From the NCBI RefSeq assembly GCF_029714405.1, contig NZ_CP121650.1, positions 3,663,001 through 3,727,000 of the forward strand: a stretch of DNA of 64,000 nt, read 5' to 3'. The DNA comes from Bradyrhizobium sp. CB82. GTDB taxonomy: Bacteria > Pseudomonadota > Alphaproteobacteria > Rhizobiales > Xanthobacteraceae. How positions within the stretch are numbered: the first letter of the stretch is position 1; every line of letters starts with the position of its first letter. Both the position numbers and the translations under genes were made by a program. Of the stretch, positions 18,988-40,036 are shown piece after piece. Below the pieces are notes generated by a model. It worked only from the letters and a program-made list of their open reading frames with translations. It was not told the DNA's origin and ran no database searches.

Positions 18988-19023
18988 CGCTCACCTTCGA
19001 TTTTTCGCGTTTCCCGAACGTCT

Positions 19024-19072
19024 GTTGGTATCTCCTCCGCCCGCGACCACACGTACCAACAGAGATACCAAC
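19024..19072. promoter_or_regulatory. Integrase arm-type sites (tRNA end)
   Basis: GTTGGTATC lies at 19024-19032 (inverted), CGTACCAAC at 19052-19060 and GATACCAAC at 19064-19072. The two direct copies are 12 bases apart, matching the pair at the far end. They sit between the integrase start and the tRNA core site. Confidence 0.6.
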
Positions 19073-19185
19073 AAAAAGCGCGGTGGCTGGCGGAGGGGTA
19101 CGAACGCAAACGAAGGGAAAATAGCGACGTTTCAGCGGCTTATGCCGCTCAAACGAAGACTAGCGAAAGCGGGTGAATAGTCAAT

Positions 19186-19206
19186 TGGTGCCGGCTGAGG
19201 GGATTG
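19186..19206. repeat. Attachment repeat (tRNA-Thr 3' end)
   Basis: Identical to 4458-4478. It covers the encoded CCA and the last 18 bases of tRNA-Thr, so integration at this site restored a complete tRNA gene. Confidence 0.85.
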
Positions 19207-19260
19207 AACCCCCGACCTTCGGTTTACAAAACCGCTGCTCTACCGCTGAGCTAAGCCGGC
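19186..19260 (-). tRNA. tRNA-Thr (anticodon TGT)
   Basis: The reverse strand folds as a complete tRNA: acceptor GCCGGCT pairs with AGCCGGC, the D arm has GCTCAGCGGTAGAGC, the anticodon loop is TTTGTAA with anticodon TGT (Thr, ACA codons), and the T arm is GGGGG-TTCAATC-CCCTC-like with the conserved TTC. CCA is encoded at 19186-19188. It is the integration site of the element to its left. Confidence 0.95.
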
Positions 19261-22813: not shown

Positions 22814-23585
22814 TCACATCATGCCGAATAGCGGACCTGCCACGGCCAACATCTCCGAAACGGCTTGCCTCACGTCGCCGAAACTCGGCAGTCGCTCGCA
22901 GGTCTGTTCATCCATATAAAGCCGTCGATTGATCTCGATCATGATGGCCCGGACCTTCGGCTCCCGCCGGTAGTGTGTTGCAGGGACCAGAGCGCCGGCG
23001 AATGGTCGGGTCGACGAGGACCGAGAACCCGCCAGCGGATGCCGCGGCAACCAAAGCGTCGCGCAGTTGTACGGGCGTATGCCAGTCGTCAGTCCCGATG
23101 CAGATGTCAGGTCGGACCGGGTCCTGGTCGGGTTCATGCGGCAGAGGTCGCGACGAAAAGCTGTGGCAATCGACGATGACACAGGTCTTCCCGTCGGCGA
23201 TCGCCTGCTCCACCGATTGTGTGAGCCTCTGATGATGGGGGCGGTACCAGGTTTCGATGAGGCGAGCCCGCTCGGCAGGCGTCAGGTGCTCGCGCAAAGG
23301 CCGTCCATCGGTTGTTCTCACATAAATAGCGCCCATGCCCCGCAACGCCATCGGTTCGTCCGCGTCCTCGGGAAATCGCTCGACGTCGCAGACCAGACGG
23401 CTGACTGGAAAGACCACCCTTGCAGCTTCGAACTCTGTGGGCGCGAACAGGTCGTCTGTGAACGCATCCGTCATGCGGAGCAACTCCAGCGCCAGCGTCC
23501 GATCGTCCGGAGCAAGTTGGACCCTCTCTTCGGGCGGAATGAGCCGAGAACTGTGGGGGATGTGGAGAATGAGATGTGGTGACAT
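22814..23585 (-). pseudogene. N-formylglutamate amidohydrolase, one frameshift
   Basis: The first frame starts MSPHLILHIPHSSRLIPPEE at 23585 and runs through CVIVDCHSFSSRPLP and GGFSVLVD, the metal and substrate motifs of N-formylglutamate amidohydrolase (the last step of histidine degradation). Near 23010 the sense moves to another frame, which supplies the expected end: RPFAGALVPATHYRR, then IMIEINRRLYMD. A single extra C (GACCCG instead of GACCG on the reverse strand) explains the break. Full family length, about 255 residues, is reached when the two frames are joined. It is probably inactive, or the break is a sequencing error. Confidence 0.75.
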
Positions 23586-23601
23586 GCCGCCCCTGGCGTC
23601 C

Positions 23602-24158
23602 TCAGGCCCGCGATTTCGGGACGGCCAAGGACCGCTCGGCTTCCTCGACGGCGCGATCGAACTGTTCCTCGAGCCACGGGCAGACGCCCCGAAGACTTTG
23701 AACGACCTCTTGGCCCAGTCGATATATTCGAGCCGGCGTTTGACCGACCAGTCGGGAGAGGGGGCAAACCCAATCGCGCGCACGTTACTGGTCTTGTCTG
23801 CGAGCTTGATGATCTTTGCTGCGTCACTCTTATTGGGCGCGTGCTCGACTTGCAGCCGTTTCCGCTCCACCTTGTCGAGTGATTTGTCGTCCGTCACTTC
23901 CGCAACGAGTGCAGCAACCCTGGTCCCGAACTCCCGCGCGATGAGTTCGGAGGGAACCTCCTGGTCTTCGATGGCATCATGCAAGAGGGCTGCAATGACC
24001 AGCTCAGGATCTCGGCCATGTGTAGCGTCAGCCGCAAGGCTTGCGACTTCGAGCAAGTGGTTAATGTAGGGCTCCTGCGCTGCGCCCTTTCGTCGCTGGT
24101 GAACGTGCCATCGCGCCGCCGCGTCAGCAGCCCTCAACACCGCAATCCATTCCTCCAT
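23602..24158 (-). pseudogene. HD-domain (p)ppGpp-hydrolase-like protein, one frameshift
   Basis: From an ATG at 24158 with AGAGG upstream: HVHQRRKGAAQEPYINHLLE, then VIAALLHDAIEDQ (His-Asp metal pair), FGTRVAALVAEVTDDKSL and IIKLADKTSNVRAI. This is the HD hydrolase pattern of SpoT and of small alarmone hydrolases (MESH1-like). At about 23710 the frame breaks. The family end, VVQSLRGVCPWLEEQFDRAV..., is in another frame and stops at 23602; loss of one G restores EYIDWAKEVVQ. The catalytic part is upstream of the break, so a shortened or extended product might still fold. Downstream the wrong frame runs by chance into the amidohydrolase gene. Confidence 0.75.
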
Positions 24159-24433
24159 AATAACCTCTGAACCACTACTATACGGTTTCGGCTGATCGAC
24201 TTTGCCTTTTTGCGCGTTGACCTCCATCTAGCAGCATGTCAGTCAGCACTGTCTAGACAACGATACGAATCGCGAGAAACGTGGCCAAGAATAAGAAGCC
24301 GCCCATCATGACATCGCAGGGCTCGCAGCTCAAATCGGACTAAGGTCCTATCCGCTCAGTCTGCACGCAAGAATTGCATTCCGCGACGAAAGATGTTTGA
24401 AAAGAGGCCTAGCTCGCGCTGGTAGGGGCGACA

Positions 24434-24766
24434 ATGAATGAACAGATTCCGGCCGTGGGCGACGGCCAGTTTGCATTGCAAGATGCGCCGCGGGACGAGC
24501 ACGAATTGGTCGACTGGTACGTTAACGAGGGGCGCCCGTGCCTTGCAGTTCACATTCCCGATCGTCAGCTGCCCGACAATGAGATCGATCGAATCAGGAG
24601 CTTAGCTCCAGATCGGACTATGGCTTGTTTCCTGGGCCATTCGGGCATCGGAAAGAGCGCACTTCTGAATACTCTTGCCGCGCGTCGGAGCCATCCTTAC
24701 CATCCGATCGTCATTGTGATGGCAGTTGACGAGTTGAGCGTAGGTGATGGAGCGCCCAAAGATTAG
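24434..24766 (+). CDS. Short P-loop protein at the head of the BREX operon (possible fragment)
   Basis: A 110-residue frame with ELVDWYVNEGRPCLAVHIPD followed by DRTMACFLGHSGIGKSALLN. The GHSGIGKSALLN segment is a Walker A loop in the style of RsgA-like or other P-loop NTPases. The protein ends about 35 residues later, too early for a full NTPase domain: no Walker B or switch motifs are seen. It overlaps the brxE start by 20 bases. It may be a truncated gene or a small nucleotide-binding partner of the operon; I cannot decide. Confidence 0.4.
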   Translation: MNEQIPAVGDGQFALQDAPRDEHELVDWYVNEGRPCLAVHIPDRQLPDNEIDRIRSLAPDRTMACFLGHSGIGKSALLNTLAARRSHPYHPIVIVMAVDELSVGDGAPKD

Positions 24767-25313
24767 TTTCGAGAAAATGCTCAAGCTTCGCACGTTAGTC
24801 GCCCGATTTGGTGAGCTTGACGTTGCTCGATGGTGGAACAGCAATGGTCAATTGGGTCGACTGGGCGCGGTGGTGTTACGCCGCGGCTTCCCACGCACTT
24901 ACCGTTTCGCGCAGGCTCGTTCGGTGTTTGCCATTGCTGCGCAGAGATGTGACGAAGTCTTTAACCCGCCAGGCTGCGTGACGCTGTGGAAGTTGCCTGA
25001 TGCCATCGAAGAAGAGTTCGACGCGCGATGGGAGCAATGGCTTGATCGGGCAAGCGAGTGGAATTCATTCTTCGATCGAGTTGAAACTCTCGGCAGCACC
25101 GATCTAGTCGAACTTCTGCGAACGTTCGAACTGGTTTCTGATGCCGAGCTTGATGCTTATGCGCGTCTCCGTCGGTCTGCGGAAGGGCGCGCGGTGCCGT
25201 TGCCTGCAGTCTTTGGTGGAACAGATTCGGACATTGCATTGCTTGCTCTTGGCTTCGCGCGCAGCGAGCCGGCAGCTGTGGCTGTTCCGTACGCCAAGAG
25301 ACCAGACGCATGA
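24747..25313 (+). CDS. brxE: BrxE-like protein, BREX type 6 marker
   Basis: A 188-residue protein opening MERPKISFEKMLKLRTLVAR, then WWNSNGQLGRLGAVVLRRGF, PRTYRFAQARSVFAIAAQRC and PPGCVTLWKLP. I recognise this pattern (LVARxGExDxxxWW, then RGFPRTxxFAQARxxFxxAxxRC) as the BrxE family of type 6 BREX systems. Its biochemical role is not known. A GTG just before the ATG could be the start. It overlaps the brxA start (ATGA), so it is translationally coupled to the rest of the BREX operon. Confidence 0.7.
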   Translation: MERPKISFEKMLKLRTLVARFGELDVARWWNSNGQLGRLGAVVLRRGFPRTYRFAQARSVFAIAAQRCDEVFNPPGCVTLWKLPDAIEEEFDARWEQWLDRASEWNSFFDRVETLGSTDLVELLRTFELVSDAELDAYARLRRSAEGRAVPLPAVFGGTDSDIALLALGFARSEPAAVAVPYAKRPDA

Positions 25314-26095
25314 CTGCGCGCTCCAAGGCGAACATTGTGTCGTCGTTCACCATAATCAAGGGAGCGATGATTGAGGAAACCTACGCTGTCTTCTCTGCCT
25401 GGGATTTCGATCGCTCTAAGCGCGAGAACCTTGATCGCCTTAGGGCAGAGAACTTCATCGGTGCTGGTAGCGCGACATGGCTCAGGGACGTCGCCAAAGT
25501 GCTGAACCGCAGGTTTGATCCAGGCGGACGCGATCAACCCCTCGTCATGCTGGCCAAGCGTGGCGTCTCGCTTGATGAGTGGAAGCCGCTTCTCCTCTGG
25601 CACATGACGCGCGACGAGTTCCTGGTCCGCGACTTCCTTGAGACGTGGCTGTTTAGTGCTTATGAGGCAGGCACCTTGCGCGTGCGATCTGAAGAAGTCG
25701 AAGCGTACGTCGGTAGCATCGGCAATCGCGGAGGAACCGTCGAGCACACCTGGTCCGAGGAGACGACAAAGCGGGTCGCGGCGGGCCTGCTCAAGATCGC
25801 CGTCGACTTCGGGCTTTTGCGCGGATCGACCGCGAAGGAGTTCGCCTCCTATCACTTGCCGGAGCAAAGCTTCTTGTATCTGCTGCACGCGATGCGCGAC
25901 GAGAAGCTCAACCCTAGCAAGGTTCTCGCTTCCAAGGAATGGCACCTGTTCCTCATGAATTCTCTCGACGTCGAGCATGAGCTCCTCAGGCTACACCAGT
26001 TTAGAAAGCTTGATTATCAGGTCGCTGGCAGTCTCGTGCAGCTGTCCCTGCCGTGCACAAGCACCCGCGAATACGCAGAGAGGATGGTTGCATGA
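25310..26095 (+). CDS. brxA: BrxA (DUF1819), BREX component
   Basis: A 261-residue protein. After a short N-terminal tail: SSFTIIKGAMIEETYAVFSA, then RRFDPGGRDQPLVMLAKRGV, LLLWHMTRDEFLVRDFLETW and the C-terminal YHLPEQSFLYLLHAMRDEKL. This is the DUF1819 pattern of BrxA, a small DNA-binding helical protein needed in BREX systems. BrxA is usually about 200 residues, so this one is on the long side. It overlaps brxE and brxB by four bases each. Confidence 0.85.
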   Translation: MTARSKANIVSSFTIIKGAMIEETYAVFSAWDFDRSKRENLDRLRAENFIGAGSATWLRDVAKVLNRRFDPGGRDQPLVMLAKRGVSLDEWKPLLLWHMTRDEFLVRDFLETWLFSAYEAGTLRVRSEEVEAYVGSIGNRGGTVEHTWSEETTKRVAAGLLKIAVDFGLLRGSTAKEFASYHLPEQSFLYLLHAMRDEKLNPSKVLASKEWHLFLMNSLDVEHELLRLHQFRKLDYQVAGSLVQLSLPCTSTREYAERMVA

Positions 26096-26667
26096 GCGAC
26101 CTCGAACAGCGCATCAGACAGAGCCTCGAGCCCGTTCTGGAGCTCCCGGATCCGCGACAACGGATCAGCGCGTATCACGATATGCCTTATGCCCTTTTCC
26201 GCTACAATCCCGAGGAAGAATTTGAACTGCGGAAGGAAGTGACGCTGCTCGAAACTCGCCTTTCTCAGAAGGGCAAGCGCATCAAACGCATATCGCTGGC
26301 CGAGTGTCTGGATGAGGCGATGCGATCACAGCGTCCGCTCGAAGAATGGTTTCTTGCGGAGCGAGAGCAAGGCGTCGAGACCATCGTCGAGACGGTCCAC
26401 TCTGTGCTCTCTGAGTATTCGCCGCTGGTCGATCTCGTTGCGGCGCGGATGCCGGAGACACCAGACCCCCTGAGTGACGTCGTCTTCATTCTACGGACGG
26501 GTGCCCTGTTTCCGGTCTACCGCACTTTCTCGCTACTGGAGCAGCTTAAGGGGCGCGTGAGTGTCCCGACCGTTCTCTTCTACCCCGGCGATCTCGATGG
26601 CGCGGCCGGCCTGCGTTTTATGGGGGTGCTCGATGCCGAGCACAATTACCGGCCAAAGATCTTCTGA
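26092..26667 (+). CDS. brxB: BrxB (DUF1788), BREX component
   Basis: 191 residues from an ATG overlapping the brxA stop: MSDLEQRIRQSLEPVLELPD, then MPYALFRYNPEEEFELRKEV, SLAECLDEAM and the late part DVVFILRTGALFPVYRTFSL, ending RGRVSVPTVLFYPGDLDG-like and FMGVLDAEHNYRPKIF. This matches DUF1788, the BrxB family, of typical length. Its role within BREX is not defined in detail; it is thought to act with BrxC and PglZ. It is followed 13 bases later by brxC. Confidence 0.85.
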   Translation: MSDLEQRIRQSLEPVLELPDPRQRISAYHDMPYALFRYNPEEEFELRKEVTLLETRLSQKGKRIKRISLAECLDEAMRSQRPLEEWFLAEREQGVETIVETVHSVLSEYSPLVDLVAARMPETPDPLSDVVFILRTGALFPVYRTFSLLEQLKGRVSVPTVLFYPGDLDGAAGLRFMGVLDAEHNYRPKIF

Positions 26668-26680
26668 CGAGGATAATGCG

Positions 26681-29600
26681 ATGACTGCTCAGATGCCCAT
26701 CAAGACGCTCTTCGCGAACGACATCCATCGTCGTATTGAGGAAGTTATCAAGGTCGACCAGACGGATGAGGAGATCATCCGGGACGAAATCGACGAGTAC
26801 GTCGTCACCCAGGCGATCCGTTCGCACTACACCAACATTTTCGACGCTTATCAAGCAACGCCAAACAAGCCTCACGAGGGCATCGCGATTTGGGTTTCCG
26901 GTTTTTTCGGCTCTGGCAAGTCGAGCTTTGCCAAGATGCTCGGGCTCTCGATCGCCAATCGCGTCTTCGCAGGCCAACCCGCCGCCGAGCGTTTTGCCGA
27001 GCGTGCAGGTGACAACAAGCTTTCCGTTCTGCTCAAGGCGATCAACGAGAAGATCCCTACCCACGCTGTTATCTTCGACGTCTCGACGGATCGCGGGATT
27101 CGCAGCGGTAACCAGACTCTCACGGAAATCATGTATGGGCTCTTTTTGCAGAGTCTTGGCTACGCGAAGGATCTGGACTTATCCGAGCTCGAGATCGGAC
27201 TTGAGGAGAAGGGTCAACTCGATCGTTTTGAGGAAGAGTACAAACGGCTCTTCAAGAAAGATTGGGCCGCCGAGAAGGGAAAGGTTGCATTCGCCCTCTC
27301 GGAGGCGAGTCGCGTCTTGAACAGCTTGGATCCCGAGACATATCCGATGGCGGACTCCTGGGTAAAAGCCGTCAAGAATAAGGCGGACATCACGCCCGGC
27401 AAGCTCGCAGAACGCGCCGGCGAGCTCATGCAGCGCCGCCAGCCTGGCCGCTCACTTATGTTTGTAGTCGATGAAGTTGGTCAGTTCGTTGCGCGTGACG
27501 TCCAGAAGATGCTCGACCTGCAAGCGATCGTCCAAAGCCTTGGCGTCAAGGGCCGTGGCAAGCTCTGGGTGGTCGTGACCTCGCAAGAGAAGCTTGGCGA
27601 ACTGGTCAGCGGGTTGGACGACAAGAAGATTGAGCTTGCGCGCTTGATGGATCGGTTTCCGCTGCAAGTGCATCTCGAGCCGTCCGACATTTCCGAGGTG
27701 ACCAGCCGCCGCGTTCTCTCGAAGAACGCCGCGGCTCAGACCGCCCTCGGTAAGCGCTTCGAAGAGCATCGTGGTCGCCTCACCGAGCACACGCGGCTCA
27801 CGGCTGATATCAAGCTCCCGGAGGTCACGCGCGATAACTTCGTCGATCTCTATCCCCTGCTACCCTACCAGATCGAACTCATCATTCAGGTCGTGTCGGG
27901 TCTGCGGACGCAGGGCGGCGCCAGCAAGCACGTTGGCGGTGCGAACCGTACTATTATCAAGCTCGCACAACAGCTCTTGATCAATCCGGCGGTAAATCTC
28001 GCCGACGCACCGCTCGGCGCGCTCGTGCGCCTCGACCAGGTCTATGATCTCGTCGAGGGGAATATCAGCTCCGAAGTGCGCGCGAAGATCGCGGCAATCG
28101 CGAAGGAGCTGAACCATCCACTCGCTCAGCCCGTAGCGAAAGCGATCTGTCTGCTCCAGTACGTGAAGAGTGTTCACCGCAGCCCCGAGAACATTGCGGC
28201 TGCGCTCCATCCGGACGTGGGAGCCGATTCCCAGCTAGCGGCGGTAAAGGAGGCGCTGCGAGAGCTCGAGGCCGCACACAAGGTTCGTCACGGCGATGAT
28301 GGCTATCGCATACCGACACCCGCCGAGGACGACTGGGAACGGCTCAGGAACGGTATCAGTCCCAAGCCCGGTGACTCGCACCGCCTGTACTCAGAGGTGC
28401 TGTCCGCGTTCTGGCAGCCGCAGCCCTCCCACATACTCTTTGACACCAAGACGTTCAAGGCAGGCCTCGCCATTCACGGCCGCGAGTTGGTGAGCGGTGA
28501 TATTATCTTCCAGCTCCATCTCGCAGAGGATGGGAAAGACTTCGATTCGCTTGCCGCCGAACTTCGCACGCGCAGCCAGCAGGAGCGCAAGCACATCTTC
28601 TGGGCCATCGCACTGACCGACACTATCGACCGCGAGACGGTCGAGCTTTTCCGCTCGAAGGAGATGCTCGCACGCAAGGAGCGGGAAACAAAGGCCGAAG
28701 ACACTCCTGCGCTCATCGCTGAGGAGCGCGTTCGTCAGCGACGCCATAACGATGAGCTGCGCAGGCTCCTCCGTGCGGCCTGTCTCTCGGGACGCATCTA
28801 CTTCCGGGGTAACGACCGCAGTCTAGGCGATCGAGCCACCGACGTGGGAAAGACCGCGGCAGAAGTGCTTGGACAGGTGTTGCCAGAGGTGTTCGACCGC
28901 TTTGGGGAAGCGGCGGCGAAGGCCGCCGACGTCAAGAAGGGCACAGATGCGCTCTTCACTGCGGAGAACCTTCAGGGTCTGCCGACGGTCTTCGGGGGCC
29001 TGGGCCTACTCCGTGACGAGAAGGGCAAGACCGTTTTCCGCGCCGAAAGCGGGCCGCTTAAGGAGGTCCTTGCTCGCATAGAGGAGCGGGCAAACTACGG
29101 TGACACTGCGAGTGGTCGATACCTTACCGATGAGTTCGCCAAGGAGCCCTTCGGCTGGGAGTTCGAGGTCGTGCGCCTTCTCGTCCTGTCGCTACTTCGC
29201 GCCGGCAAGATCGAGGCTACGAGCAAGGGTCAGACGCTTGACACCGTGACCAGCGTCGAAGCGCGCGATACCTTCTCGAACAACAATCTGTTTCGGCAGG
29301 CGTCCTTTCGACCAAGAAAGGGCATCGAGTTTGAGGAGTTAGTGAAGGCCTCGGAGGCCTTCCGCGACACGTTCGGCAGCGAGGTCAAGGAGCTGAACGC
29401 AAGCGCAATAGTGGCCGAGCTCCGCAAGGAGGTCACTCGCCACGAGGACACGGTCTCCTCCGCTCTCGCGATGCTCACCGCGCATCGCCTGCCCGGTGGA
29501 GCGGTGCTCGACTCCGCCATCGGCCAGATGAAGGCGATCCTGCGAGGTTCGGAGGATAACGCCATCGCGACCTTCAATACGAGCCACCGCTCCATCAAGG

Positions 29601-30226
29601 ACGCCATAAAGCGCGCCGTCGAGCTCGAGCAAGTGCTGTCCGAGCCCCGTCTCCACGACCTGGAGCGAGCACGAAAGGCGCAGTCGAGCCTCTGGAACTT
29701 CTTGAACCAGGAGGCAGATATAGCCGACGACCTGCGCGGGTGGGCGATGGCTCTCGAGGACCTCCTCGCCCGTGAGACTTTCTTCAAGGAGCTGCCGTCG
29801 ATCGAGCAGCATACGAAGGCCATCGAGACGGAGTATGCGCGCCGCTTCGACGAGGCGCTTGAAGCACGCGTCACGGCGTACACCAAAGCCTTTGGCGAGC
29901 TTGTCAAGTCCCCGGGTTGGTCAGAGGTCGACCAGGATGAACGGCGCCTCCTCGCTGAGCCATTCGAACGCGGGCAGAAGCGCGATGCGGAGCACGTGCC
30001 CATCCCGCAGCTCCGGGCCGACCGCGATGCATGCGAGGGGCGACTCCGTGTAGCCATCGCGGAGCTTCTGCGCATCATCGACGGCGAGCGCGTCGTCGCA
30101 GTGAGTGTCAGCGGCTACTTTGCTGGCGGCATAGAGACCGAAGAGCAACTTGATGCGGCGCTCGATGGGGTTCGTGAGGAATGTGCGCGTCTTATCGGCG
30201 CGGGCAAGAAAGTCATCGTTCAGTAG
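26681..30226 (+). CDS. brxC: BrxC, large BREX P-loop ATPase
   Basis: 1181 residues from the ATG at 26681. KTLFANDIHRRIEEVIKVDQ opens the protein, as usual in BrxC. Walker A GFFGSGKSSFAK lies at about residues 73-84 and Walker B LMFVVDEVGQFVARD at about 258. The middle and C-terminal parts are helical with coiled coil (residues about 950-1100). BrxC is the largest ATPase of BREX (DUF499-related) and is needed for defence. The upstream extension of the frame overlaps brxB in another frame and is not used. The next gene starts 8 bases after the stop. Confidence 0.92.
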   Translation: MTAQMPIKTLFANDIHRRIEEVIKVDQTDEEIIRDEIDEYVVTQAIRSHYTNIFDAYQATPNKPHEGIAIWVSGFFGSGKSSFAKMLGLSIANRVFAGQPAAERFAERAGDNKLSVLLKAINEKIPTHAVIFDVSTDRGIRSGNQTLTEIMYGLFLQSLGYAKDLDLSELEIGLEEKGQLDRFEEEYKRLFKKDWAAEKGKVAFALSEASRVLNSLDPETYPMADSWVKAVKNKADITPGKLAERAGELMQRRQPGRSLMFVVDEVGQFVARDVQKMLDLQAIVQSLGVKGRGKLWVVVTSQEKLGELVSGLDDKKIELARLMDRFPLQVHLEPSDISEVTSRRVLSKNAAAQTALGKRFEEHRGRLTEHTRLTADIKLPEVTRDNFVDLYPLLPYQIELIIQVVSGLRTQGGASKHVGGANRTIIKLAQQLLINPAVNLADAPLGALVRLDQVYDLVEGNISSEVRAKIAAIAKELNHPLAQPVAKAICLLQYVKSVHRSPENIAAALHPDVGADSQLAAVKEALRELEAAHKVRHGDDGYRIPTPAEDDWERLRNGISPKPGDSHRLYSEVLSAFWQPQPSHILFDTKTFKAGLAIHGRELVSGDIIFQLHLAEDGKDFDSLAAELRTRSQQERKHIFWAIALTDTIDRETVELFRSKEMLARKERETKAEDTPALIAEERVRQRRHNDELRRLLRAACLSGRIYFRGNDRSLGDRATDVGKTAAEVLGQVLPEVFDRFGEAAAKAADVKKGTDALFTAENLQGLPTVFGGLGLLRDEKGKTVFRAESGPLKEVLARIEERANYGDTASGRYLTDEFAKEPFGWEFEVVRLLVLSLLRAGKIEATSKGQTLDTVTSVEARDTFSNNNLFRQASFRPRKGIEFEELVKASEAFRDTFGSEVKELNASAIVAELRKEVTRHEDTVSSALAMLTAHRLPGGAVLDSAIGQMKAILRGSEDNAIATFNTSHRSIKDAIKRAVELEQVLSEPRLHDLERARKAQSSLWNFLNQEADIADDLRGWAMALEDLLARETFFKELPSIEQHTKAIETEYARRFDEALEARVTAYTKAFGELVKSPGWSEVDQDERRLLAEPFERGQKRDAEHVPIPQLRADRDACEGRLRVAIAELLRIIDGERVVAVSVSGYFAGGIETEEQLDAALDGVREECARLIGAGKKVIVQ

Positions 30227-30234
30227 GGACCGCC

Positions 30235-31323
30235 GTGACGATCTCTGACGACACCATCAAAAAAGCCCTGCAGCGATATCATCGTGAGTACGATCGCTAC
30301 CTCAAACTTTCGGCACGCATCGCTGAAATATGCCGCTCGGAGATCGTCGAGGGAAATGCGATACGCGCCCAGGTCACGTCACGCGCGAAAAGTCCCAAGA
30401 GCCTAGAGGGCAAACTCCGCCGTTTCGCGGCCACGGGTAAGAAGTCGATCCCCGATGTCGACGCTGTCTTCGATCAGATCCGTGATCTCGCTGCCGTGAG
30501 AATTGCAACGTACGAGCAAAGGCACGAGGATCAGGTTGTGCAACTTGTCTGCAAACGTTTCATCGATGCGGGCGGTCAAAGACCATTTCACGAGCGGAAG
30601 GATAAGAATCAAGGCGATCCCACGAACTTCTATCGTGCTAGCCACCTTGAGGTATTTCTAACGCCTGGAGATGGGGTTGGGACTTATACAAATGTGATGG
30701 ACGTGCCTTGCGAGGTGCAAGTGTGCAGCATGATGGCACATGTCTGGAACGAGATTGAGCACGACCTCGGTTACAAGCCGGCTGCCGGCGAGCTCTCAGA
30801 GCAGGAGCGCAATTTCCTTATGATGCTCGGCCAGTCGGTTCGCATGGGCGACGGTACCATCTCGAGCCTGTTCGCCGAAACTGAGCGCCGACAGAGGGAG
30901 CAGGAAGGTGCATTCACGGATGTTTACGATTTCGTTGCCCGGATGCGCGGATCCTTTCCGGGTGTTGATTTTGGTCGCAACGCTGGAGCTCTCTTTGAAT
31001 CGTTACGACCTATCAGGCTCGTCAGCCCAGATGGCATTAGGCGCCTTCTCGATCAACCTGAGCCACTGACAGAAGGGGGGCGTAACGCATTAGAGAATTT
31101 CGCCTGCCGCCTTCATGCGCAAGGGAACACGCGTTTCGCTCTAGAGCCGGACTCCTCAGATCTGCTTCTTGTACTGCTTCTACCCAAGATTGCCCGGCAT
31201 CTTGTCTCGCCGCTGGCCGATGCTCCTTCAGACGGAGTCGTCCGGGTTCGATGGTTAGCAGAGCGGTTCCCACAGGGACGGTCGGAAGCAACCATCGCCA
31301 CGGCACACGACGAGGAACGCTGA
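30235..31323 (+). CDS. RelA/SpoT-family nucleotidyltransferase inserted in the BREX operon
   Basis: 362 residues from a GTG at 30235, 8 bases after brxC. The RelA/SpoT synthetase signature is complete: RAKSPKSLEGKL at about residue 50 (ATP-binding loop), IRDLAAVRIATYEQ at about 83, FYRASHLEVFL at about 132 and CEVQVCSMMAHVWNEIEHDL at about 158. There is no HD hydrolase, TGS or ACT domain, so it is a single-domain synthetase with a C-terminal helical region of about 180 residues of unknown role. Relatives make (p)ppGpp or, in toxSAS toxins such as CapRel, pyrophosphorylate tRNA and stop translation during phage infection. Its stop overlaps the pglX start (TGATG). The product here is unknown. 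It is not part of described BREX core gene sets. Confidence 0.85.
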   Translation: MTISDDTIKKALQRYHREYDRYLKLSARIAEICRSEIVEGNAIRAQVTSRAKSPKSLEGKLRRFAATGKKSIPDVDAVFDQIRDLAAVRIATYEQRHEDQVVQLVCKRFIDAGGQRPFHERKDKNQGDPTNFYRASHLEVFLTPGDGVGTYTNVMDVPCEVQVCSMMAHVWNEIEHDLGYKPAAGELSEQERNFLMMLGQSVRMGDGTISSLFAETERRQREQEGAFTDVYDFVARMRGSFPGVDFGRNAGALFESLRPIRLVSPDGIRRLLDQPEPLTEGGRNALENFACRLHAQGNTRFALEPDSSDLLLVLLLPKIARHLVSPLADAPSDGVVRVRWLAERFPQGRSEATIATAHDEER

Positions 31324-34300
31324 TGGACAAGGAGACTCGCAACGCAATCGAGCGCGCCACGCAGTGGGCACGAAATCTCCTCGAGGAGGACTTCGCCTCG
31401 CAGCTCGAGGGCGATTTCGATGTGCACCGCGACGGGGTTGTGGCTGCGAAGCCCAGTGGACACCTCTCGGCTCGTCAGGTCCTCCAGCGTGAGCGCATCG
31501 TCGCCGCTATCGACCACAAGCGCGCCGCCGGCATGAACGCATCGGACGCCGTGTGCGACTACCTGCGCGACGCTGCTTTCACCACGCTCAACCGTTTCGT
31601 TGCGCTCAAGATGCTCGAAGCACGCGAGCTGGTGCAGCAATGCATCACAAAGGGCGAGCAGTCCGCCGGCTACCGCGAGTTCTGTGGCATGGCCCAGGGC
31701 CTGCCACTCTTGCCCAACAATGCGGGCTACCGGCTTTACGTCGAGTCGCTGTTCGACGAGCTGGCGACCGAGGTGAAGGTTCTCTTCGACCGGCGCGATC
31801 CGTCGAGTGTGCTTTGGCCGAAGCGCGCGAGCTTTGAGCAGCTCCTCGAGATACTGAATGCCAGCGAGCTCGCTCGCGTATGGGGAGAGGACGAGACCAT
31901 CGGGTGGGTCTACCAATTCTTCAACGGCCAGGACGAGCGGCGGAAGATGCGCGAGGAGAGTCAGGCGCCGCGAAACAGCCGAGAGCTGGCGGTACGTAAT
32001 CAGTTCTTCACGCCTCGTTACGTGGTCCAATTCCTCACAGACAATACGCTCGGCCGGATCTGGTACGAGATGCGCGGCATGAACACGGTCCTCGCTGAGC
32101 GATGCGAGTACATGGTCCGCAAGTCTGGTGAGGCATTCGAACCGCGAGCGAAGAAGGATCCGCGGGACCTGCGACTGCTCGATCCAGCTTGTGGCAGCGG
32201 GCACTTCCTTCTCTATGCTTTCGATCTTCTGCTCGAGATCTACGAGGAGGCATATGCCGATCTCGAGAGCCCGAAGAGCGAGGAGACGGGCCGCACGTTG
32301 GCAGAGGATTGCCCCAGCCTAGACGCACTCCGTAGGGCTGTTCCGGGCCTTATCCTCGCGCACAATCTGCACGGCGTCGACATCGACCCTCGCTGCGCGC
32401 AGATCGCCCAGCTCGCACTCTGGATGCGTGCGCAAAAGGCGTACCGCGACTTTGGGGTTGGTCGCGCGGAGCGCTTGCAGGTTCGCCGCTCCAACATCGT
32501 TGTCGCGGAGCCGCTGGTAGCCGATGACCAGATCGCGAAGGAGTTTGTCGCGAAGCTTGGTGACGCAGAGCTGGGCCGCGTGTTCACCGGACTGGTTGAC
32601 GCGCTAAGCCTTGCGGGGGACCTCGGGCTCCTGTTGCGCGTCGAGACGCTATTGGCAAGTACTCCGAAGCGGGGGCAGTCCAGCGATATCTTCGCGCCGC
32701 CCGAAGAGCGGATTCGTGAGACGCTATCCCTGTTCATCCAGGAGGAAGGCGAGCGAATGAGCACGAGGCGTAGGCTATTCGCAAACGACGCTGCTCACGG
32801 CATTGGTCTTTTGGAGGTGGCGGAGAAGAAGTACGACGTCGTGGTGATGAATCCGCCCTTTGGGGAGCCTTCATTGCCTAGCAGGGCGACCGTGTACGAG
32901 TCGTCACCGGCGGCGACCGCTGATTTAGGCGCCGCCTTCATTGACCGCTTTTCCGGAATGTTGCGCGCTGGCGGAGTGCTTGGAGTTCTTAAGAGCCGAG
33001 CGCTTCTTTTCCACGACAATCTTGAATCGTGGAGAAATCAGGTTTTTCTCGGTGGAACCCTGAGCGCTACGTGTCTTGGAGACTTGGGATATGGAGTGCT
33101 TGACGCGGTCGTAGAGGTGGACGCGGCTGTCCTGGCGAACCGACCTCCCGGCGAATGTGTATTCATCTCTTGTCTCGCAGGCAAAGACAAGGGAGAGCTG
33201 TTGCGCGCAGGAGTCAGGGGTGAGGAGGGGGCATCGGTCTATGCACACGCGCTCGACCGATTCAAACGTGTGCCTCTTTCGAAGATAGTCTACTTTCTGT
33301 CCGACCGATGGCTCGATTATTTTCAGAATAATGCGCTGGCATCATGGTTTACCAGCAAGGCCGGATTGGCCAGTGGAGATGACGAGCGCTTTGTCCGCGC
33401 ACATTGGGAGGTGGCTCCGAGCGAAATAGCTTCGGATCGCTGGCGATGGTTTGCCAAAGGCGGTGATTTTGGCCGATACAAGTCAGATCTACACTTGGTT
33501 ATCCGGTGGGGTAACCACGAGCTCTTTCGGAGGCCAGGCAACGCTGAGCTCTATGGTCGTCCAGGCGTCACATATACGGAACGCACGACATCCAATCTCT
33601 CCGTTCGCGCGCTCGCCGCAAGATCTAGCTTTTCTTACGCCGGCCCAGCTATCATCCCAGAATTCTCGGAGAGTCTTCCGTATCTGCTGTTCATTCTTAA
33701 CTCGTGGTTTGTGACGTACCTGGTCGAGGCGCTGTCTGGATCCGGTGATCATTCGGTTCGGGGATCTGCCGCGCGTCACTTTTACCCAAGCTATTTTGAG
33801 CGCATCGCCATTCCGAAGCCCGATAGCAAGGATTGCGACTGGTTCAAGAAGCGAGTGGATAGGCTCTTTGCTACGTTGAGCCCTTGTATCACCGATGAGA
33901 CTGACGCGTCCTTTCTCGGTCCAAGAGTATCGCCAGGGGACACCATTTTGGGTTGGAGTCAGCGGCTCGAAAGATCACTATATGGCGCCTACCGTCAAGC
34001 ATACGCGATGATACGCGAATCGGAAGAAAGAATCGCCGTTAGCGTTCAGTTGATGCCCACGGACGTGCGCCAGGGATTTGAGTTCACCGGGTGGCCGTGG
34101 CCCTCGGCAGACAAAGTGCCCAGCGAAGCCGCAGGGTATGTATCGCGATATTCTCCGAGCGATGCCGCCCCGCCTGAAGCGATCGAGAAGCTTGGCGGCG
34201 TGCGTTTCGCCAATAAGCTCTCGCACTATCTGTCCGCTTCTATCGAGTCAGTCGCGCACGCCTGGAGTGTATCTCCTGAGGCGCTGTGTGCGTGGGGCGA

Positions 34301-35438
34301 AGTGCACTGCGTTCCAAGTCCCGCTCGCAATGCGGAGATGTGTGTCGATCTGCTTCAATGGTCGATGGGAGTTGCATTCGGCCGGTGGGACATCAGACAT
34401 GCGTCATCAGAGGTCGATGCCCAAGAGTCCCAACATGCGTTTCAACAGCTCCCTGCGTGCGCCCCTGGTGTGCTCGTTGGAGATAGCGGCCTCCCTGTTC
34501 TGGATCCGCCCTTAAGTTATCCGATTGCTGTCCCAGCAGACGGCATTCTTGTGGACGACCTCGGTCATCAGCGTGATGTGAGGCGCGCGATTCAGGCAGT
34601 ATTCGAATGTATTTTTGACCGTGCGGATGATCGGCTAAACGAGGTCGCTGAGTGTCTTGGGGTGCAGAGTCTTAGCGAGTGGTTCGCTCGAACCTTTTTC
34701 AACGTTCACGTTAAGAGATACAGTAAGAGCCGGCGCAAGGCGCCGATTTACTGGCAGCTCGCGACACCCTCGGCAAGCTACTCGATCTGGCTATATGTCC
34801 ATAGCTTCAGTAGAGATACACTTTTCCGTGTCCAGAACGACTACGCTGCGCCGAAACTCGCCCATGAAGAGCGCCGCCTGGAATTGCTAACCAGCGAGCT
34901 TCGCGAAAGAGCTACCGCCACACAGCGTAAGGAGTTGGCCGCCCAGGAGACCCTGGTCGGAGAGCTCCGCGCCTTCCTCGAAGAGGTGAAGCGTGTCGCT
35001 CCGCTCTGGAATCCAAACCTCGATGACGGCGTTATGATCAACTTCGCGCCGCTGTGGCGACTGGTGCCGCAGAACAAGTCCTGGCAGAAGGAGCTGAAAT
35101 CGACGTGGGACGCACTCTGCGAGGGAAAGTACGACTGGTCGCATCTCGCGATGCGCCTCTGGCCTGAGCGGGTGGTACCGCAGTCTGCGAAAGACCGAAG
35201 CGTAGCCATAGCCCACGGTCTTGACGATGTGTTTTGGGTCGAAGGCGATAGTGGCAAGTGGACAGCACGCAAAACGCCTGCTCGCAGCATCGATGAGCTC
35301 GTACGTGAGCGCTCGTCGCCTGCGGTTAAGTCCGCGCTCAAGAGCGTGCTAGAGGCACCCGCCGCAGCAGGAAACGGGACGCGCGGGCGGGGTAGTCGAC
35401 GGCGATCCACTGTCACTGCTGATGGAGGAGATGCCTGA
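31323..35438 (+). CDS. pglX: PglX, BREX adenine-specific DNA methyltransferase
   Basis: 1371 residues. MDKETRNAIERATQWARNLL starts at an ATG overlapping the stop of the RelA/SpoT-like gene. Motif I LLDPACGSGHFLLYAFDLLL lies at about residues 285-304 and motif IV VVMNPPFGEP at about 506-515, the arrangement of N6-adenine methyltransferases. Large helical and target-recognition regions follow (residues 600-1300), and the C terminus is basic. PglX marks host DNA and distinguishes phage DNA. An open frame extends upstream to 31251, but the ATG at 31323 fits family starts. It is coupled to pglZ by a TGATG overlap. Confidence 0.93.
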   Translation: MDKETRNAIERATQWARNLLEEDFASQLEGDFDVHRDGVVAAKPSGHLSARQVLQRERIVAAIDHKRAAGMNASDAVCDYLRDAAFTTLNRFVALKMLEARELVQQCITKGEQSAGYREFCGMAQGLPLLPNNAGYRLYVESLFDELATEVKVLFDRRDPSSVLWPKRASFEQLLEILNASELARVWGEDETIGWVYQFFNGQDERRKMREESQAPRNSRELAVRNQFFTPRYVVQFLTDNTLGRIWYEMRGMNTVLAERCEYMVRKSGEAFEPRAKKDPRDLRLLDPACGSGHFLLYAFDLLLEIYEEAYADLESPKSEETGRTLAEDCPSLDALRRAVPGLILAHNLHGVDIDPRCAQIAQLALWMRAQKAYRDFGVGRAERLQVRRSNIVVAEPLVADDQIAKEFVAKLGDAELGRVFTGLVDALSLAGDLGLLLRVETLLASTPKRGQSSDIFAPPEERIRETLSLFIQEEGERMSTRRRLFANDAAHGIGLLEVAEKKYDVVVMNPPFGEPSLPSRATVYESSPAATADLGAAFIDRFSGMLRAGGVLGVLKSRALLFHDNLESWRNQVFLGGTLSATCLGDLGYGVLDAVVEVDAAVLANRPPGECVFISCLAGKDKGELLRAGVRGEEGASVYAHALDRFKRVPLSKIVYFLSDRWLDYFQNNALASWFTSKAGLASGDDERFVRAHWEVAPSEIASDRWRWFAKGGDFGRYKSDLHLVIRWGNHELFRRPGNAELYGRPGVTYTERTTSNLSVRALAARSSFSYAGPAIIPEFSESLPYLLFILNSWFVTYLVEALSGSGDHSVRGSAARHFYPSYFERIAIPKPDSKDCDWFKKRVDRLFATLSPCITDETDASFLGPRVSPGDTILGWSQRLERSLYGAYRQAYAMIRESEERIAVSVQLMPTDVRQGFEFTGWPWPSADKVPSEAAGYVSRYSPSDAAPPEAIEKLGGVRFANKLSHYLSASIESVAHAWSVSPEALCAWGEVHCVPSPARNAEMCVDLLQWSMGVAFGRWDIRHASSEVDAQESQHAFQQLPACAPGVLVGDSGLPVLDPPLSYPIAVPADGILVDDLGHQRDVRRAIQAVFECIFDRADDRLNEVAECLGVQSLSEWFARTFFNVHVKRYSKSRRKAPIYWQLATPSASYSIWLYVHSFSRDTLFRVQNDYAAPKLAHEERRLELLTSELRERATATQRKELAAQETLVGELRAFLEEVKRVAPLWNPNLDDGVMINFAPLWRLVPQNKSWQKELKSTWDALCEGKYDWSHLAMRLWPERVVPQSAKDRSVAIAHGLDDVFWVEGDSGKWTARKTPARSIDELVRERSSPAVKSALKSVLEAPAAAGNGTRGRGSRRRSTVTADGGDA

Positions 35439-37990
35439 TGCATCCGCTTCACGATTATGTAGCAAAGCAGCTCGCCGACAAGCTGAAGTCGCGTTGGGTC
35501 GTCGTTTGGTATGACGAGCGCAGCGAGTTCCAATCCTTCGTCAATGAAATGCGCGGCGGTGCGCGAGAGACGGGCGAGCTGGTGGCGATCACGGTGAATG
35601 GCATAGCTACGCGGCTTGCGGAGTATGCCGGCTCGATGTTCGAGTTACGTGCGGCTGTCGAGCCGCATATAAACGGCGATACCGCGACGGCGCTCATCGT
35701 GTACATGCCAGGGTGCGCGCGCGACCGACGGGCTTCTGTGCTTATGGAGCTCGAGAAGGCCGGCACCACCTGGGAGCCACAGCTTAAGCAGCTCGCGAAG
35801 CATGTTCTCCTGCAGCAGTACACTTTGGGGATCGTCGACGAGATGATCCCCTATGACCGCAAGGTCTCATACGACGACCTTGCGCGCGCGGCGGCGGGCA
35901 GCGCGCATGGGGAGCTCCCCTCAATCCTGAAAAGCATCTTCCACGACACCAGCGGGAACGACGCGCTCCTGGCAGCGTGGATCGTGAGCGACGGCCGCGA
36001 CGCGGAGATCGGGAGCAAGGACGCGACGCGGGAGCTTGAAAAGCTCATCAAGGTTCGTCTTGGCCTCGAGCTGCCAACGGAAGTAGCGCTACCGAAGCTG
36101 CGGGCGGTGACGCTCCGATACGTGCTCGCAGGGGAGCTCAGGCAGGACCTCTCCTGTGAGCCACCCACGTCCCTCGAGGGGATTCCGGAGCCCGCAACGA
36201 GGGACGAGAAAGCGGCCGTTCGCGAACTCACGCGACGACTGCGCAGCAGCTACCCGGACGCTTATGCGGCGCTGGCGGATCGCGTCGAGGAAGAGCTCGG
36301 CCTCAAGGCGGCAAAGCTACTTCCTGGCGCGCTCAGCGCGATCGATACCTTCCGCTTCGAGGAGAGAGCTCTCCTTCGCTACGCAGGTGACCTCATCGCG
36401 GCTAGGAAATTCGGCGATGCCCTCGAGCTCGTTGCGAAGTGCGAGCAGAGCTTCTGGATTGACCGAGACGTTGGAAGAAAGGCCCAGTGGGAAGCAACTC
36501 GACGCATGGCTGAGCTCGGCAATCTGGCGATCGAAATACAAAGTGCGGTCGACAAGATGTCGGGCGACGCAACGGCCTGGCTCAACGCCTACGTTAGCAA
36601 GGACGGCTGGTACCGGCTCGACCAGGCGCAGCGTCGCCTCGAAGCTTGGGTAGCCAATCTCGAAGATGAACCAGAGGAACGCCCGCTAGGTGTCGTTCGG
36701 CGGGCCTACGAGGACGCCTGTTACGCGATGGCGGACGGCTTCACGAAGGCGCTAATGAAGGCCGGGTGGACGATCGCAGGGATGCTCCACCAGACGCGCG
36801 TCTTCAGCGAGGTTGTGTCCGAGCGGCCGAAACCCGTAGCCTATTTCCTCGTAGACGCGATGCGTTTCGAGATGGGCGTCGATCTCGCGGAGCGTTTGCC
36901 AAAGTCGTCAGAGGTAGCCATCCGCGTTGCAGTTGGAGCGCTGCCTAGCATAACGCCCATTGGTATGGCGGCTCTGATGCCGGGAGCATCATCGAGCTTC
37001 TCCGTTGTCGCGCAGGGGGAGAAGCTGGGAGGGCGTATTGAGGATAGCTTCCTGCCTGACCTCGCGAGCAGGAAAAAGTTCGCGGCTGCGCGCGTGCCGG
37101 GGCTTGTCGATTTCGCGCTCGATGAGCTGCTCAGCCAGCAGCCATCCAGGCTGACGAAGAAGCTCGATGGGGCTCACGTCGTCGTCGTTCGGTCGCAGGA
37201 GATCGACCACGCGGGCGAGACAGGGTTCTCGTTCCAGGCTCGCCAAGTCATGGACACGGTGATCGACAACCTCGCCCGAGCGATCCGTAAGCTGGCGGTC
37301 GCCGGTATCGAGCACGCCGTGGTTACGGCGGACCACGGGCATCTATTCTTCGCGAGCGACCGGGACGACTCGATGCGCACCGATGCGCCAGGAGGCGACA
37401 CGGTTGAGCTGCATCGCCGCTGTTGGATTGGTCGCGGAGGGAGCACACCGCCGGGATGCGTGCGCGTCGCGGCTTCTGCACTTGGGTATCCGTCCGACCT
37501 CGAGTTCGTCTTCCCGGCGGCATCGGGAGTGTTTTTGGCCGGCGGGGACTTGGCGTTTCACCACGGCGGACCATCCCTCCAGGAGCTCGTGATCCCGGTG
37601 CTGACGGTCCGAACGAAGGCCCGGGAGTCTGCCCGGCCGTCCGCGGGCCCGATTACGGTGACTGCGCTTCCTGAGGCGGTAACTAACCGTATCTTCAGCG
37701 TAACATTCACGTTCGGCGAGAAACAGATGATACTCGGCGCGATAGGGATTCAGGTCCGGCCGCTGCTGATGGCTGCAGGAAAGCAAGTCGGCACCGTTGG
37801 GTTGGCGGTTGATGCGCAGTTTGATCGCGCGACCGGCTGCGTGGAGCTCGTACCGAACAGACCAGTAACGGTCGCCTTCCTGCTCACCGACGAGAGTGCG
37901 CCCTCGGTCCGCGTAGTGGTGCAGGACCCGGCGACCGACGCTGAGCTATACAGATCGCCCAACGACATCCCAGTTCGACTTGGAGTGTAA
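35438..37990 (+). CDS. pglZ: PglZ, BREX alkaline-phosphatase-superfamily protein
   Basis: 850 residues: MHPLHDYVAKQLADKLKSRW and VVVWYDERSEFQSFVNEM open the N-terminal domain. The phosphatase-fold domain has VAYFLVDAMRFEMGVDLAER at about residue 467 (a metal-binding Asp) and VVTADHGHLFFASD at about 627 (Asp-His-x-His). A C-terminal beta domain follows. PglZ is a core BREX protein, predicted to have nuclease or phosphodiesterase activity and to work with PglX and BrxB. It overlaps pglX and is followed three bases later by brxL. Confidence 0.92.
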   Translation: MHPLHDYVAKQLADKLKSRWVVVWYDERSEFQSFVNEMRGGARETGELVAITVNGIATRLAEYAGSMFELRAAVEPHINGDTATALIVYMPGCARDRRASVLMELEKAGTTWEPQLKQLAKHVLLQQYTLGIVDEMIPYDRKVSYDDLARAAAGSAHGELPSILKSIFHDTSGNDALLAAWIVSDGRDAEIGSKDATRELEKLIKVRLGLELPTEVALPKLRAVTLRYVLAGELRQDLSCEPPTSLEGIPEPATRDEKAAVRELTRRLRSSYPDAYAALADRVEEELGLKAAKLLPGALSAIDTFRFEERALLRYAGDLIAARKFGDALELVAKCEQSFWIDRDVGRKAQWEATRRMAELGNLAIEIQSAVDKMSGDATAWLNAYVSKDGWYRLDQAQRRLEAWVANLEDEPEERPLGVVRRAYEDACYAMADGFTKALMKAGWTIAGMLHQTRVFSEVVSERPKPVAYFLVDAMRFEMGVDLAERLPKSSEVAIRVAVGALPSITPIGMAALMPGASSSFSVVAQGEKLGGRIEDSFLPDLASRKKFAAARVPGLVDFALDELLSQQPSRLTKKLDGAHVVVVRSQEIDHAGETGFSFQARQVMDTVIDNLARAIRKLAVAGIEHAVVTADHGHLFFASDRDDSMRTDAPGGDTVELHRRCWIGRGGSTPPGCVRVAASALGYPSDLEFVFPAASGVFLAGGDLAFHHGGPSLQELVIPVLTVRTKARESARPSAGPITVTALPEAVTNRIFSVTFTFGEKQMILGAIGIQVRPLLMAAGKQVGTVGLAVDAQFDRATGCVELVPNRPVTVAFLLTDESAPSVRVVVQDPATDAELYRSPNDIPVRLGV

Positions 37991-37993
37991 GCC

Positions 37994-40036
37994 ATGACGA
38001 CCGACGGTGCTCCTTCGCGAGACGGTCTTGACGACAAGGTTAATCGGCTGTTTGCGGGCAAGGTCGTTCGAAAGGATCTAGTTCGGAAAGTAAAGGTTGG
38101 TGCAAACGTCCCGGTTTTCGTCCTGGAGTTTCTTCTTGGAAAATATTGCGCGTCATCAGACGAAGTGGCGATTCAGATGGGACTGCAGGTCGTCAACGAT
38201 ACCCTTGCAAACAATTACATTCGCCCAGACGAGTCGATGAGGGCGCAGGCGATCGTGAAGGATCGCGGCCGTCACACCTTCATCGACAAGGTGAAAGTCC
38301 GCCTTGTCGACTCGGACTACTGGGCTGAGGTTACAAACTTTGGCCACAAGAACGTGCACTTACCCGAGCACTACGTGCGTGAGTACGAGCGTCTCGTAAT
38401 GGGCGGCGTCTGGGCTCAGGTGGATATGCGGTTCGAGTATGACGAGGAGTCGCGGGGGAAGAATCCGTTTTGGATCGATAAGCTGACCCCGATCCAGATC
38501 GCGACTTTTGATCTCGAGGAGTACCGTCGAATTCGGAGTGAATTCACGACGGACGAGTGGCTCGATCTCATCATGCGAAGCATGGGATACGAACCGGGGG
38601 AGATGTCGCGGCGGTTGAAGCTGCTGTTCCTTATCCGCCTCATCCCGCTCGCCGAGCGCAACTATAATCTCGTCGAACTCGGACCGAGAGGTACGGGCAA
38701 GAGCTATGTTGTCCAGGAGGTGTCACCGTACTCGGCCCTGCTTACAGGAGGCACCACGGTCGCGAACCTCTTTGGCCACATGTCCGGTCGCCAGAAGGGG
38801 ATGGTGCAGATCTGGGACGTTGTCGGTTTCGACGAGGTCGCGGACCTCCAAAAAATGCCCAAGGAAGTCATCACGACAATGAAGACTTACTGCGAGTCTG
38901 GGACGTTCCAACGCGGGCAGGAGGCCGTTTCGGGTGACGCAAGCATCGCCATGTTTGGCAACACGAACCAACCTGTCGACGTGATGGTGCAGACAGGCCA
39001 CCTGTTCGCACCAATGCCTGACATAATTCGCGACGATATGGCGTTCATTGATCGCATGCACTTCTATCTCCCGGGTTGGGAGATCCCTAAAATGCGGAAC
39101 GACCTCTTCACGAACCACTACGGATTTGTCGTGGATTACCTTGCCGAGGCTCTCCGCGAGATGAGGAAACATAACTTCACGGAGATCATCGACCGCTATT
39201 TCTCCCTCGGTGCCCACCTGAATGCCCGAGACCGAAAGGCGGTCCGCAAGACTGTCTCGGGTCTCATGAAGATCCTTTTTCCGCACGGCCAGGTCACGCA
39301 GGAAGAGCTCGCTGAGCTTCTCGAGCTGGCGCTCGACGGACGCCGGCGCGTGAAGGAGCAGCTCAAGAAGATGGGCTCCTTCGAATATTACCACACATCC
39401 TTCAGCTACACGCTTCAGGAGACTGGTGAAGAAAAGTTTGTCGGGGTACCCGAGCAAGGCGGACGCGATCTCATTTCGACTGATCCACTAGCGCCCGGCA
39501 CTGTCTACAGCGCCGGCGTCACGTCGGATGGCACAGTTGGCCTCTATCGCGTCGAGGTTTCCATTTCAAACGGAACTGGAAAACTGAAACTCGCGGGCGG
39601 GGTAGCCGGAGCGATGAAAGAATCGGTGCAGCGGGCGTTCAGCTTCCTGCAGGCAAAGAAGACCGATCTCAGCGTGGCTCGTGATCTTGACGTATCGGAC
39701 TTTCATGTGGAGGTAATTGATCTTCTTGCGAACCGTGTCGAAGCCGAGCTCGGCGTTGCGTTCTTCGTGGCCTGCTACTCCGCACTGCGGAAAGCGCCCG
39801 TGAGTCCCGCGCTGCTCCTCCTCGGAGACATGAGCGTCCAGGGAAACATCAAGCCGCTCCGCTCACTCACAGAGCCCCTTCAGGTAGCCAAGGACAATGG
39901 CGCTAAGCGCGCGCTCATCCCGATAGAGAACAAGCGAAACTTCCTCGATGTGAGCGCCGATATCATGGAGCATGTCGACCCGATCTTCTACGGAGATCCG
40001 AAGACAGCAGCCTTGAAGGTGATTGGAGCAAACTGA
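37994..40036 (+). CDS. brxL: BrxL, BREX AAA+/Lon-like protein
   Basis: 680 residues. The N-terminal domain (1-220) contains KVVRKDLVRKVKVGANVPVF and VPVFVLEFLLGKYC. The AAA+ domain has Walker A LGPRGTGKSYVVQE at about residue 228 and IWDVVGFDEVADLQ (Walker B). The C-terminal Lon-like domain from about 500 has SDFHVEVIDLLANRVEAELG, LLLLGDMSVQGNIKPLRSLT and RALIPIENKRNFLDV. The Lon serine motif (PxDGPSAG) is not present in its canonical form, as is usual for this family. BrxL is the signature of type 1 BREX and forms DNA-binding hexamers or dodecamers. It is the last gene of the operon. Confidence 0.93.
   Translation: MTTDGAPSRDGLDDKVNRLFAGKVVRKDLVRKVKVGANVPVFVLEFLLGKYCASSDEVAIQMGLQVVNDTLANNYIRPDESMRAQAIVKDRGRHTFIDKVKVRLVDSDYWAEVTNFGHKNVHLPEHYVREYERLVMGGVWAQVDMRFEYDEESRGKNPFWIDKLTPIQIATFDLEEYRRIRSEFTTDEWLDLIMRSMGYEPGEMSRRLKLLFLIRLIPLAERNYNLVELGPRGTGKSYVVQEVSPYSALLTGGTTVANLFGHMSGRQKGMVQIWDVVGFDEVADLQKMPKEVITTMKTYCESGTFQRGQEAVSGDASIAMFGNTNQPVDVMVQTGHLFAPMPDIIRDDMAFIDRMHFYLPGWEIPKMRNDLFTNHYGFVVDYLAEALREMRKHNFTEIIDRYFSLGAHLNARDRKAVRKTVSGLMKILFPHGQVTQEELAELLELALDGRRRVKEQLKKMGSFEYYHTSFSYTLQETGEEKFVGVPEQGGRDLISTDPLAPGTVYSAGVTSDGTVGLYRVEVSISNGTGKLKLAGGVAGAMKESVQRAFSFLQAKKTDLSVARDLDVSDFHVEVIDLLANRVEAELGVAFFVACYSALRKAPVSPALLLLGDMSVQGNIKPLRSLTEPLQVAKDNGAKRALIPIENKRNFLDVSADIMEHVDPIFYGDPKTAALKVIGAN

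Follow-up and report, generated by a model that had tools for sequence, protein, structure and literature searches.

Accessory effectors are already known from BREX (bacteriophage exclusion) loci. BrxU is described as a separate defence layer within a BREX island (PMC8565348), and the main text of a 2026 survey reports nuclease backup effectors in BREX loci, PARIS-type, tRNA-cleaving ones among them (PMC12839542). We analysed a 64,000-nucleotide stretch of the Bradyrhizobium sp. CB82 contig NZ_CP121650.1 (hereafter 'the window'), in which a gene for a RelA/SpoT-type synthetase, designated RSH, lies inside a BREX operon. RSH resembles BrxU/GmrSD and the PARIS-like OLD-TOPRIM, HEPN and Schlafen proteins named in the text of these sources in being an accessory of a BREX locus. 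These embedded effectors are nucleases, however, whereas RSH is by homology a predicted nucleotidyl pyrophosphotransferase, with a sister clade found next to Dnd/CxC operons. A conserved enzyme of alarmone type would thus add a different chemistry to the nuclease backup effectors described there.

Among related synthetases, the RelQ/SAS1 and RelP/SAS2 chains measure about 209-237 aa and lack a C-terminal domain, which RSH possesses. CapRel of the Salmonella phage SJ46 had been cited in the original prediction as a single-domain enzyme. This is incorrect: it is described as a fused sensor-toxin, with a C-terminal antitoxin domain that forms a beta-sheet pseudo-zinc-finger (PMC9712102). The CapRel gene stands alone in its phage, whereas RSH is embedded in BREX.

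The RSH gene has a GTG start and encodes 362 aa without an internal stop (coordinates in Table 1). The RelA_SpoT profile PF04607 matches residues 49-182 above the Pfam cut-off of 27 bits, which places the protein in this superfamily; no PADLOC family matched it at E<=0.01. RSH follows brxC after a gap of 8 nt, and its TGA stop shares one nucleotide with the ATG of pglX (TGATG). The predicted placement between brxC and pglX is therefore borne out by the open reading frame (ORF), the PF04607 match and the profile scores of the neighbours. The operon runs brxE-like, brxA, brxB, brxC, RSH, pglX, pglZ, brxL; with brxA, brxB, brxC, pglX, pglZ and brxL all present, it is a type 1-like BREX operon, and its tight packing suggests coordinated expression of RSH. 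We propose that RSH is a pyrophosphokinase resembling the small alarmone synthetases, controlled by a C-terminal domain of its own, and that a single BREX lineage carries it as a dedicated effector, accessory to the core genes, which would impose a growth or translation arrest gated by this domain. Taken as a whole, this explanation has in our judgement an even chance of being right.

Linkage of RSH to one BREX lineage

Relatives were sought in two ways. A protein search found 669 RSH homologues at E<=1e-3, the best 120 of the 669 being listed, and a scan of 84,980 genomes, one per species, with two exact peptides drawn from a 20-sequence alignment yielded 28 loci. The scan sees part of the family only, because one of the two exact peptides was required. 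All 12 relatives at 52-72% identity (L007-L018) were found inside this BREX type, four of them between brxC and pglX, as in the window, and eight between pglX and pglZ; contig ends cut the stretches L009, L014, L015 and L017. The original prediction had named the brxC-pglX spaces of other BREX loci as the place to look for RelA_SpoT-type genes, and four of the 12 closest loci do carry one there. Because the in-operon position recurs in 12 of these 12 loci, the placement of RSH goes beyond chance, and from the loci compared RSH in BREX is no stray insertion. These loci were collected by way of RSH, and hence provide no measure of its rate among close BREX relatives.

Throughout the 13 BREX loci (window included), RSH is separated from the preceding gene by at most 9 nt, with an overlap in 7. 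It overlaps the following gene in 11, the remaining two gaps being 0 and 2 nt; neighbour starts were taken from alignments, and the aligned pglZ start of L018 is no start codon. In all 13, the spacing is too tight for an antitoxin gene to fit next to RSH. Six close RSH copies were compared for the ratio of nonsynonymous to synonymous substitutions (dN/dS). Of their 15 pairs, 11 gave a finite dS, and for these dN/dS was 0.034-0.068; the ratios are rough because dS exceeded 1 in 8 of the 11. The close copies are, by this measure, under purifying selection.

Loci were also collected through BrxC, in searches of 385, 391, 146, 219, 220 and 218 genomes, partly overlapping. The nearest relatives of the RSH-bearing BREX loci so found (BrxC identity 61% for L049, 60% for L048, 54% for L067) have the same gene order, and RSH is present in none of the three. 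At BrxC identities of 25-28%, RSH was found in none of the 10 fetched stretches, two of which (L054 and L069) are cut early by contig ends. RSH therefore does not occur throughout the related BREX loci, and its absence from the sister loci makes it accessory, not core. Judging by these comparisons, RSH belongs to a single BREX lineage as an accessory and has long been kept there. The six genomes with BrxC matches of at least 79% all carry RSH, which is not a rate, as all six were previously known carriers or search centres; the matches that BrxC newly added are those at 54-61% and 25-28%. In 398 genomes of the phylum, the RSH profile gave two matches, in the host's own genome and in G707. The original prediction held that described BREX gene sets lack such a gene; in the main text of the survey (PMC12839542), the terms RelA, SpoT, alarmone, ppGpp, pyrophosphokinase and synthetase are absent. 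Among the titles and abstract openings listed by literature searches, we found no report of RSH in BREX, Dnd or DISARM.

In a tree of 36 RSH sequences, the BREX clade (13 rows) had a support of 99/96 and a Dnd clade (16 rows, including L003 and L004) 99/97; the tool warned of long branches among the outer rows. BrxC proteins of the 13 RSH-bearing loci likewise form a clade (99/99). The change of slot requires one event on the BrxC tree and two on the RSH tree. The two trees conflict at L016/L017, which suggests exchange of RSH within the slot. An exploratory mirror-tree comparison on 11 of the 13 loci gave, for the RSH core, correlations of 0.67 with BrxC, 0.56 with PglZ, 0.42 with BrxB and 0.32 with BrxL, the others being near zero or negative.

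Two further observations concern the neighbouring genes. The pglX gene is split in 7 of the 13 loci (L008, L011, L012, L013, L015, L016 and L018) into a methylase half of about 608-644 aa and a specificity-like half; L015 has two tandem specificity-like genes, and L014 ends too early for a split to be judged. In L012, seen with its flank L078, about 2.4 kb of DNA appears to split brxC close to residue 41-46, and the flank holds brxE, brxA and brxB; RSH and the genes that follow it remain open despite this apparent interruption.

Relatives beside Dnd/CxC, DISARM-type and mobile elements

The next relatives, 16 loci at 40-47% identity (L019-L034), showed none of this BREX inside the stretches examined. 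In 14 of the 16 (L020-L033), RSH lies on the same strand, an estimated 30-615 nt upstream of an operon of the Dnd-linked CxC-ATPase (PbeABCD) type. This operon encodes a sigma-region-4 protein together with a helicase and an ATPase, and in most cases also a small protein and a last ORF. In the stretches examined, a match to dndC, dndD or dndE was found in 9 of the 14, a cysteine desulfurase only in one, and neither in four. In L004, a copy from a Rhizobium plasmid, PADLOC identified the helicase as PbeA and the ATPase as PbeC; the other loci were assigned by tblastn to L004. PbeA and PbeC belong to the CxC-type systems of a Dnd/CxC review (PMC10853773), from whose main text the terms RelA, SpoT, alarmone, ppGpp and pyrophosphokinase are absent. 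A large sigma-70 region 4 protein follows RSH in L003, L004 and L020-L033 (764 aa in L004, with a weak MzaA match there); it is possible that the two form a pair in Dnd/CxC loci.

Other contexts were more varied. In L034, RSH stands directly ahead of genes for a DrmD that passes the NCBIfam cut-off and for a methylase of DrmMI/type IIG-like kind, and in L019 it lies 2.5 kb downstream of a type IIG-like methylase. More distant copies occur on a Rhizobium plasmid (L005), on a Bacteroides phage-plasmid (L006) and in an island with integrase-like genes (L056). Full-length relatives of RSH stand alone in two prophage-like contigs, with capsid and portal genes (L065) or a primase (L066); the protein can therefore travel without BREX. 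These were the only RSH matches among viral contigs, and BrxC had none there. Plasmids held six RSH records, all at no more than 46% identity (contexts examined: H1, H2, H3, H6), and eight BrxC records, each below 30%. Phage records gave no RSH match at E 1e-5 and 13 weak-match records at E<=10.

Such contexts bear on the possibility that RSH is an independent guest nested in BREX: a CapRel-like anti-phage gene acting on its own, for which BREX is a landing slot without functional link. The standalone relatives in prophage-like contigs, the phage-plasmid, the plasmid and the mobile island fit this view, as do the absence of RSH from the sister loci, the tree conflict at L016/L017 and the precedent of BrxU as described (PMC8565348). 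Distant BREX loci (L052, L053, L068 and L070) also carry long extra ORFs in the same brxC-pglX or pglX-pglZ slots. Yet a mere guest would hardly be expected to occur in BREX in all 12 close relatives and with none of this BREX in the examined stretches of the next 16, to form separate, supported BREX and Dnd lineages, or to keep its tight spacing with whichever neighbour follows. We consider it unlikely.

More tentatively, the distribution may mean that two-domain alarmone-type synthetases form a signalling layer common to modification-based defences, with BREX, Dnd/CxC and DISARM-type systems each having recruited a lineage of their own. Foreign DNA that is unmarked or protected, or else a phage anti-restriction protein, would then raise a nucleotide alarm that leads to growth arrest; the logic would be like that of CBASS or Thoeris, with (p)ppGpp-like chemistry instead. 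This is possible, although we hold it doubtful. A conserved alarmone-type enzyme in such loci would in any case connect the enzymes of the stringent response with epigenetic self/non-self defence, and would yield a testable prediction for several systems together. Modification-based partners could also be read as the mark of an establishment guard, which would restrain growth or the restriction arm until the DNA of a new host is marked, averting self-damage after transfer. BREX-linked RSH occurs in records that carry the labels Myxococcota and Pseudomonadota, metagenome-assembled genomes among them, which is compatible with this; but the sister BREX loci manage without RSH, and we regard a guard as very improbable.

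Catalytic core, C-terminal domain and proposed working

The core motifs are kept, in line with the original prediction: 12 core positions (R50, K52, K60, D84, R89, Y133, H137, E160, Q162, H176, Y180 and K181) are kept in 36 of 36 aligned sequences. Their roles are assigned after the RelQ literature. RSH differs from RelQ and RelP by two near-invariant cysteines around the catalytic Glu/Gln, C159 and C164 (about 30709-30726), present in 34 of the 36 sequences. RelQ and CapRel have other residues at these places, so the product of RSH may differ.

The C-terminal domain, about 120 residues long, is variable in sequence among relatives and is modelled as all-helical, with six helices (pLDDT, the per-residue model confidence, 91.8). 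Fold searches with it gave no convincing solved match, an absence that is no evidence of a new fold. By hhalign, RSH had no significant match to SJ46 CapRel, and the domain itself matched nothing in the CapRel C-terminus, a missing match being no proof. CapRel may still serve as a model of mechanism, yet its C-terminal region has a reported beta-sheet fold (PMC9712102), whereas that of RSH is predicted to be helical. A confidently modelled domain for which no solved match was found is a concrete candidate sensor.

Since no antitoxin gene fits beside RSH and the catalytic positions are kept, the enzyme would be harmless at rest, or else kept in check either by its C domain or by the defence proteins. 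The same two-domain protein occurs in BREX, Dnd/CxC and DISARM-type settings that have no obvious partner in common, and by itself in prophage-like contigs; self-gating and a phage-related trigger, specialised to each host system, would be an economical explanation. The activity, gating, trigger, product and abortive outcome that we infer would run as follows. At rest, the six-helix domain would hold the synthetase off. Upon infection, a phage product, or stalled or inhibited BREX machinery, would engage this domain. The released enzyme would transfer pyrophosphate from ATP to GTP or GDP (alternatively to ATP/ADP or tRNA 3' ends). Growth, replication or translation would stop, and a phage escaping or outpacing BREX could not complete its cycle.

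A milder outcome is conceivable, in which a regulatory amount of a (p)ppGpp-like product slows host replication or transcription, or acts on the defence proteins, and buys time for a slow modification-based restriction without cell killing. The RSH model is closest in fold to the (p)ppGpp-making RelQ/RelP; the family stands beside BREX, Dnd/CxC and a DISARM-type locus, where DNA marking is common and a common partner is not obvious; and the packing of the operon suggests coordinated expression. Against this, the residues at Cys159/Cys164, distinct from those of RelQ and CapRel, may mean a different product, and we think such a modulator rather unlikely. The original prediction, which left the choice between a second, abortive layer and an alarmone tuning of BREX, is thus supported in part: gene linkage and conservation are seen in the sequences, and the activity is what we infer.

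Other features of the window

Table 1. Coordinates of the RSH gene, its domains and the BREX genes in the window
Feature	Position	Strand	Remarks
RSH, RelA/SpoT-type synthetase	30235..31323	+	inside BREX operon; PF04607 45.7 bits; model pLDDT 87.5
Synthetase core, residues 45-182	30367..30780	+	RelQ/RelP-like fold; ATP-loop, G-loop, E160/Q162 conserved
C-terminal six-helix domain, about residues 227-345	30913..31269	+	faster evolving; candidate sensor/autoinhibitor
brxE-like, first operon gene	24744..25313	+	weak PADLOC BrxE, 14.4 bits, E 0.006
brxA	25310..26095	+	PF08849 above Pfam cut-off
brxB	26053..26667	+	PF08747 above Pfam cut-off
brxC, P-loop ATPase	26681..30226	+	NF033441 895.7 bits (cut-off 400); ATG start inferred
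pglX (brxX), methyltransferase	31323..35438	+	NF033452 (BREX-1) 565.6 bits, cut-off 500
pglZ	35438..37990	+	PF08665 above Pfam cut-off; PADLOC PglZ 1307 bits; under NCBIfam PglZ subtype cut-offs
brxL	37994..40036	+	TIGR02653 994.7 bits (cut-off 628); Pfam cut-off also passed

A homologue of the brxE-like gene precedes brxA in 10 of the 12 BREX relatives, in the flank of L012 and in all three RSH-less sister loci; the L015 stretch starts past brxE.

Elsewhere in the host genome (10.1 Mb, two contigs), the PF04607 search found one further RelA_SpoT protein, a long Rel of 762-766 aa. On the minus strand of the window (22908-24227), a domain like the HD_4 small alarmone hydrolases is in frame with an N-formylglutamate amidohydrolase, its last part lying in another frame (22814-23182). 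This ORF is divergent from, and about 200 bp away from, the ORF preceding the brxE-like gene. A conserved antidote role for it was rejected, as a tblastn search of the loci and of 18 flanking stretches, which covered 10 of the 12 BREX relatives and included two from RSH-less sister loci, gave no copy next to RSH; another copy of such a hydrolase (54%) lies elsewhere in the host genome, as does the ordinary Rel.

A tyrosine integrase beside a tRNA-Thr gene and, downstream of brxL, a serine resolvase are present (17620-19260 and 40991-41617), and may mark the BREX operon as part of a mobile island. Finally, a 110-aa P-loop ORF (24434-24766, plus strand) overlaps the start of the brxE-like gene and resembles the beginning of a larger ATPase.
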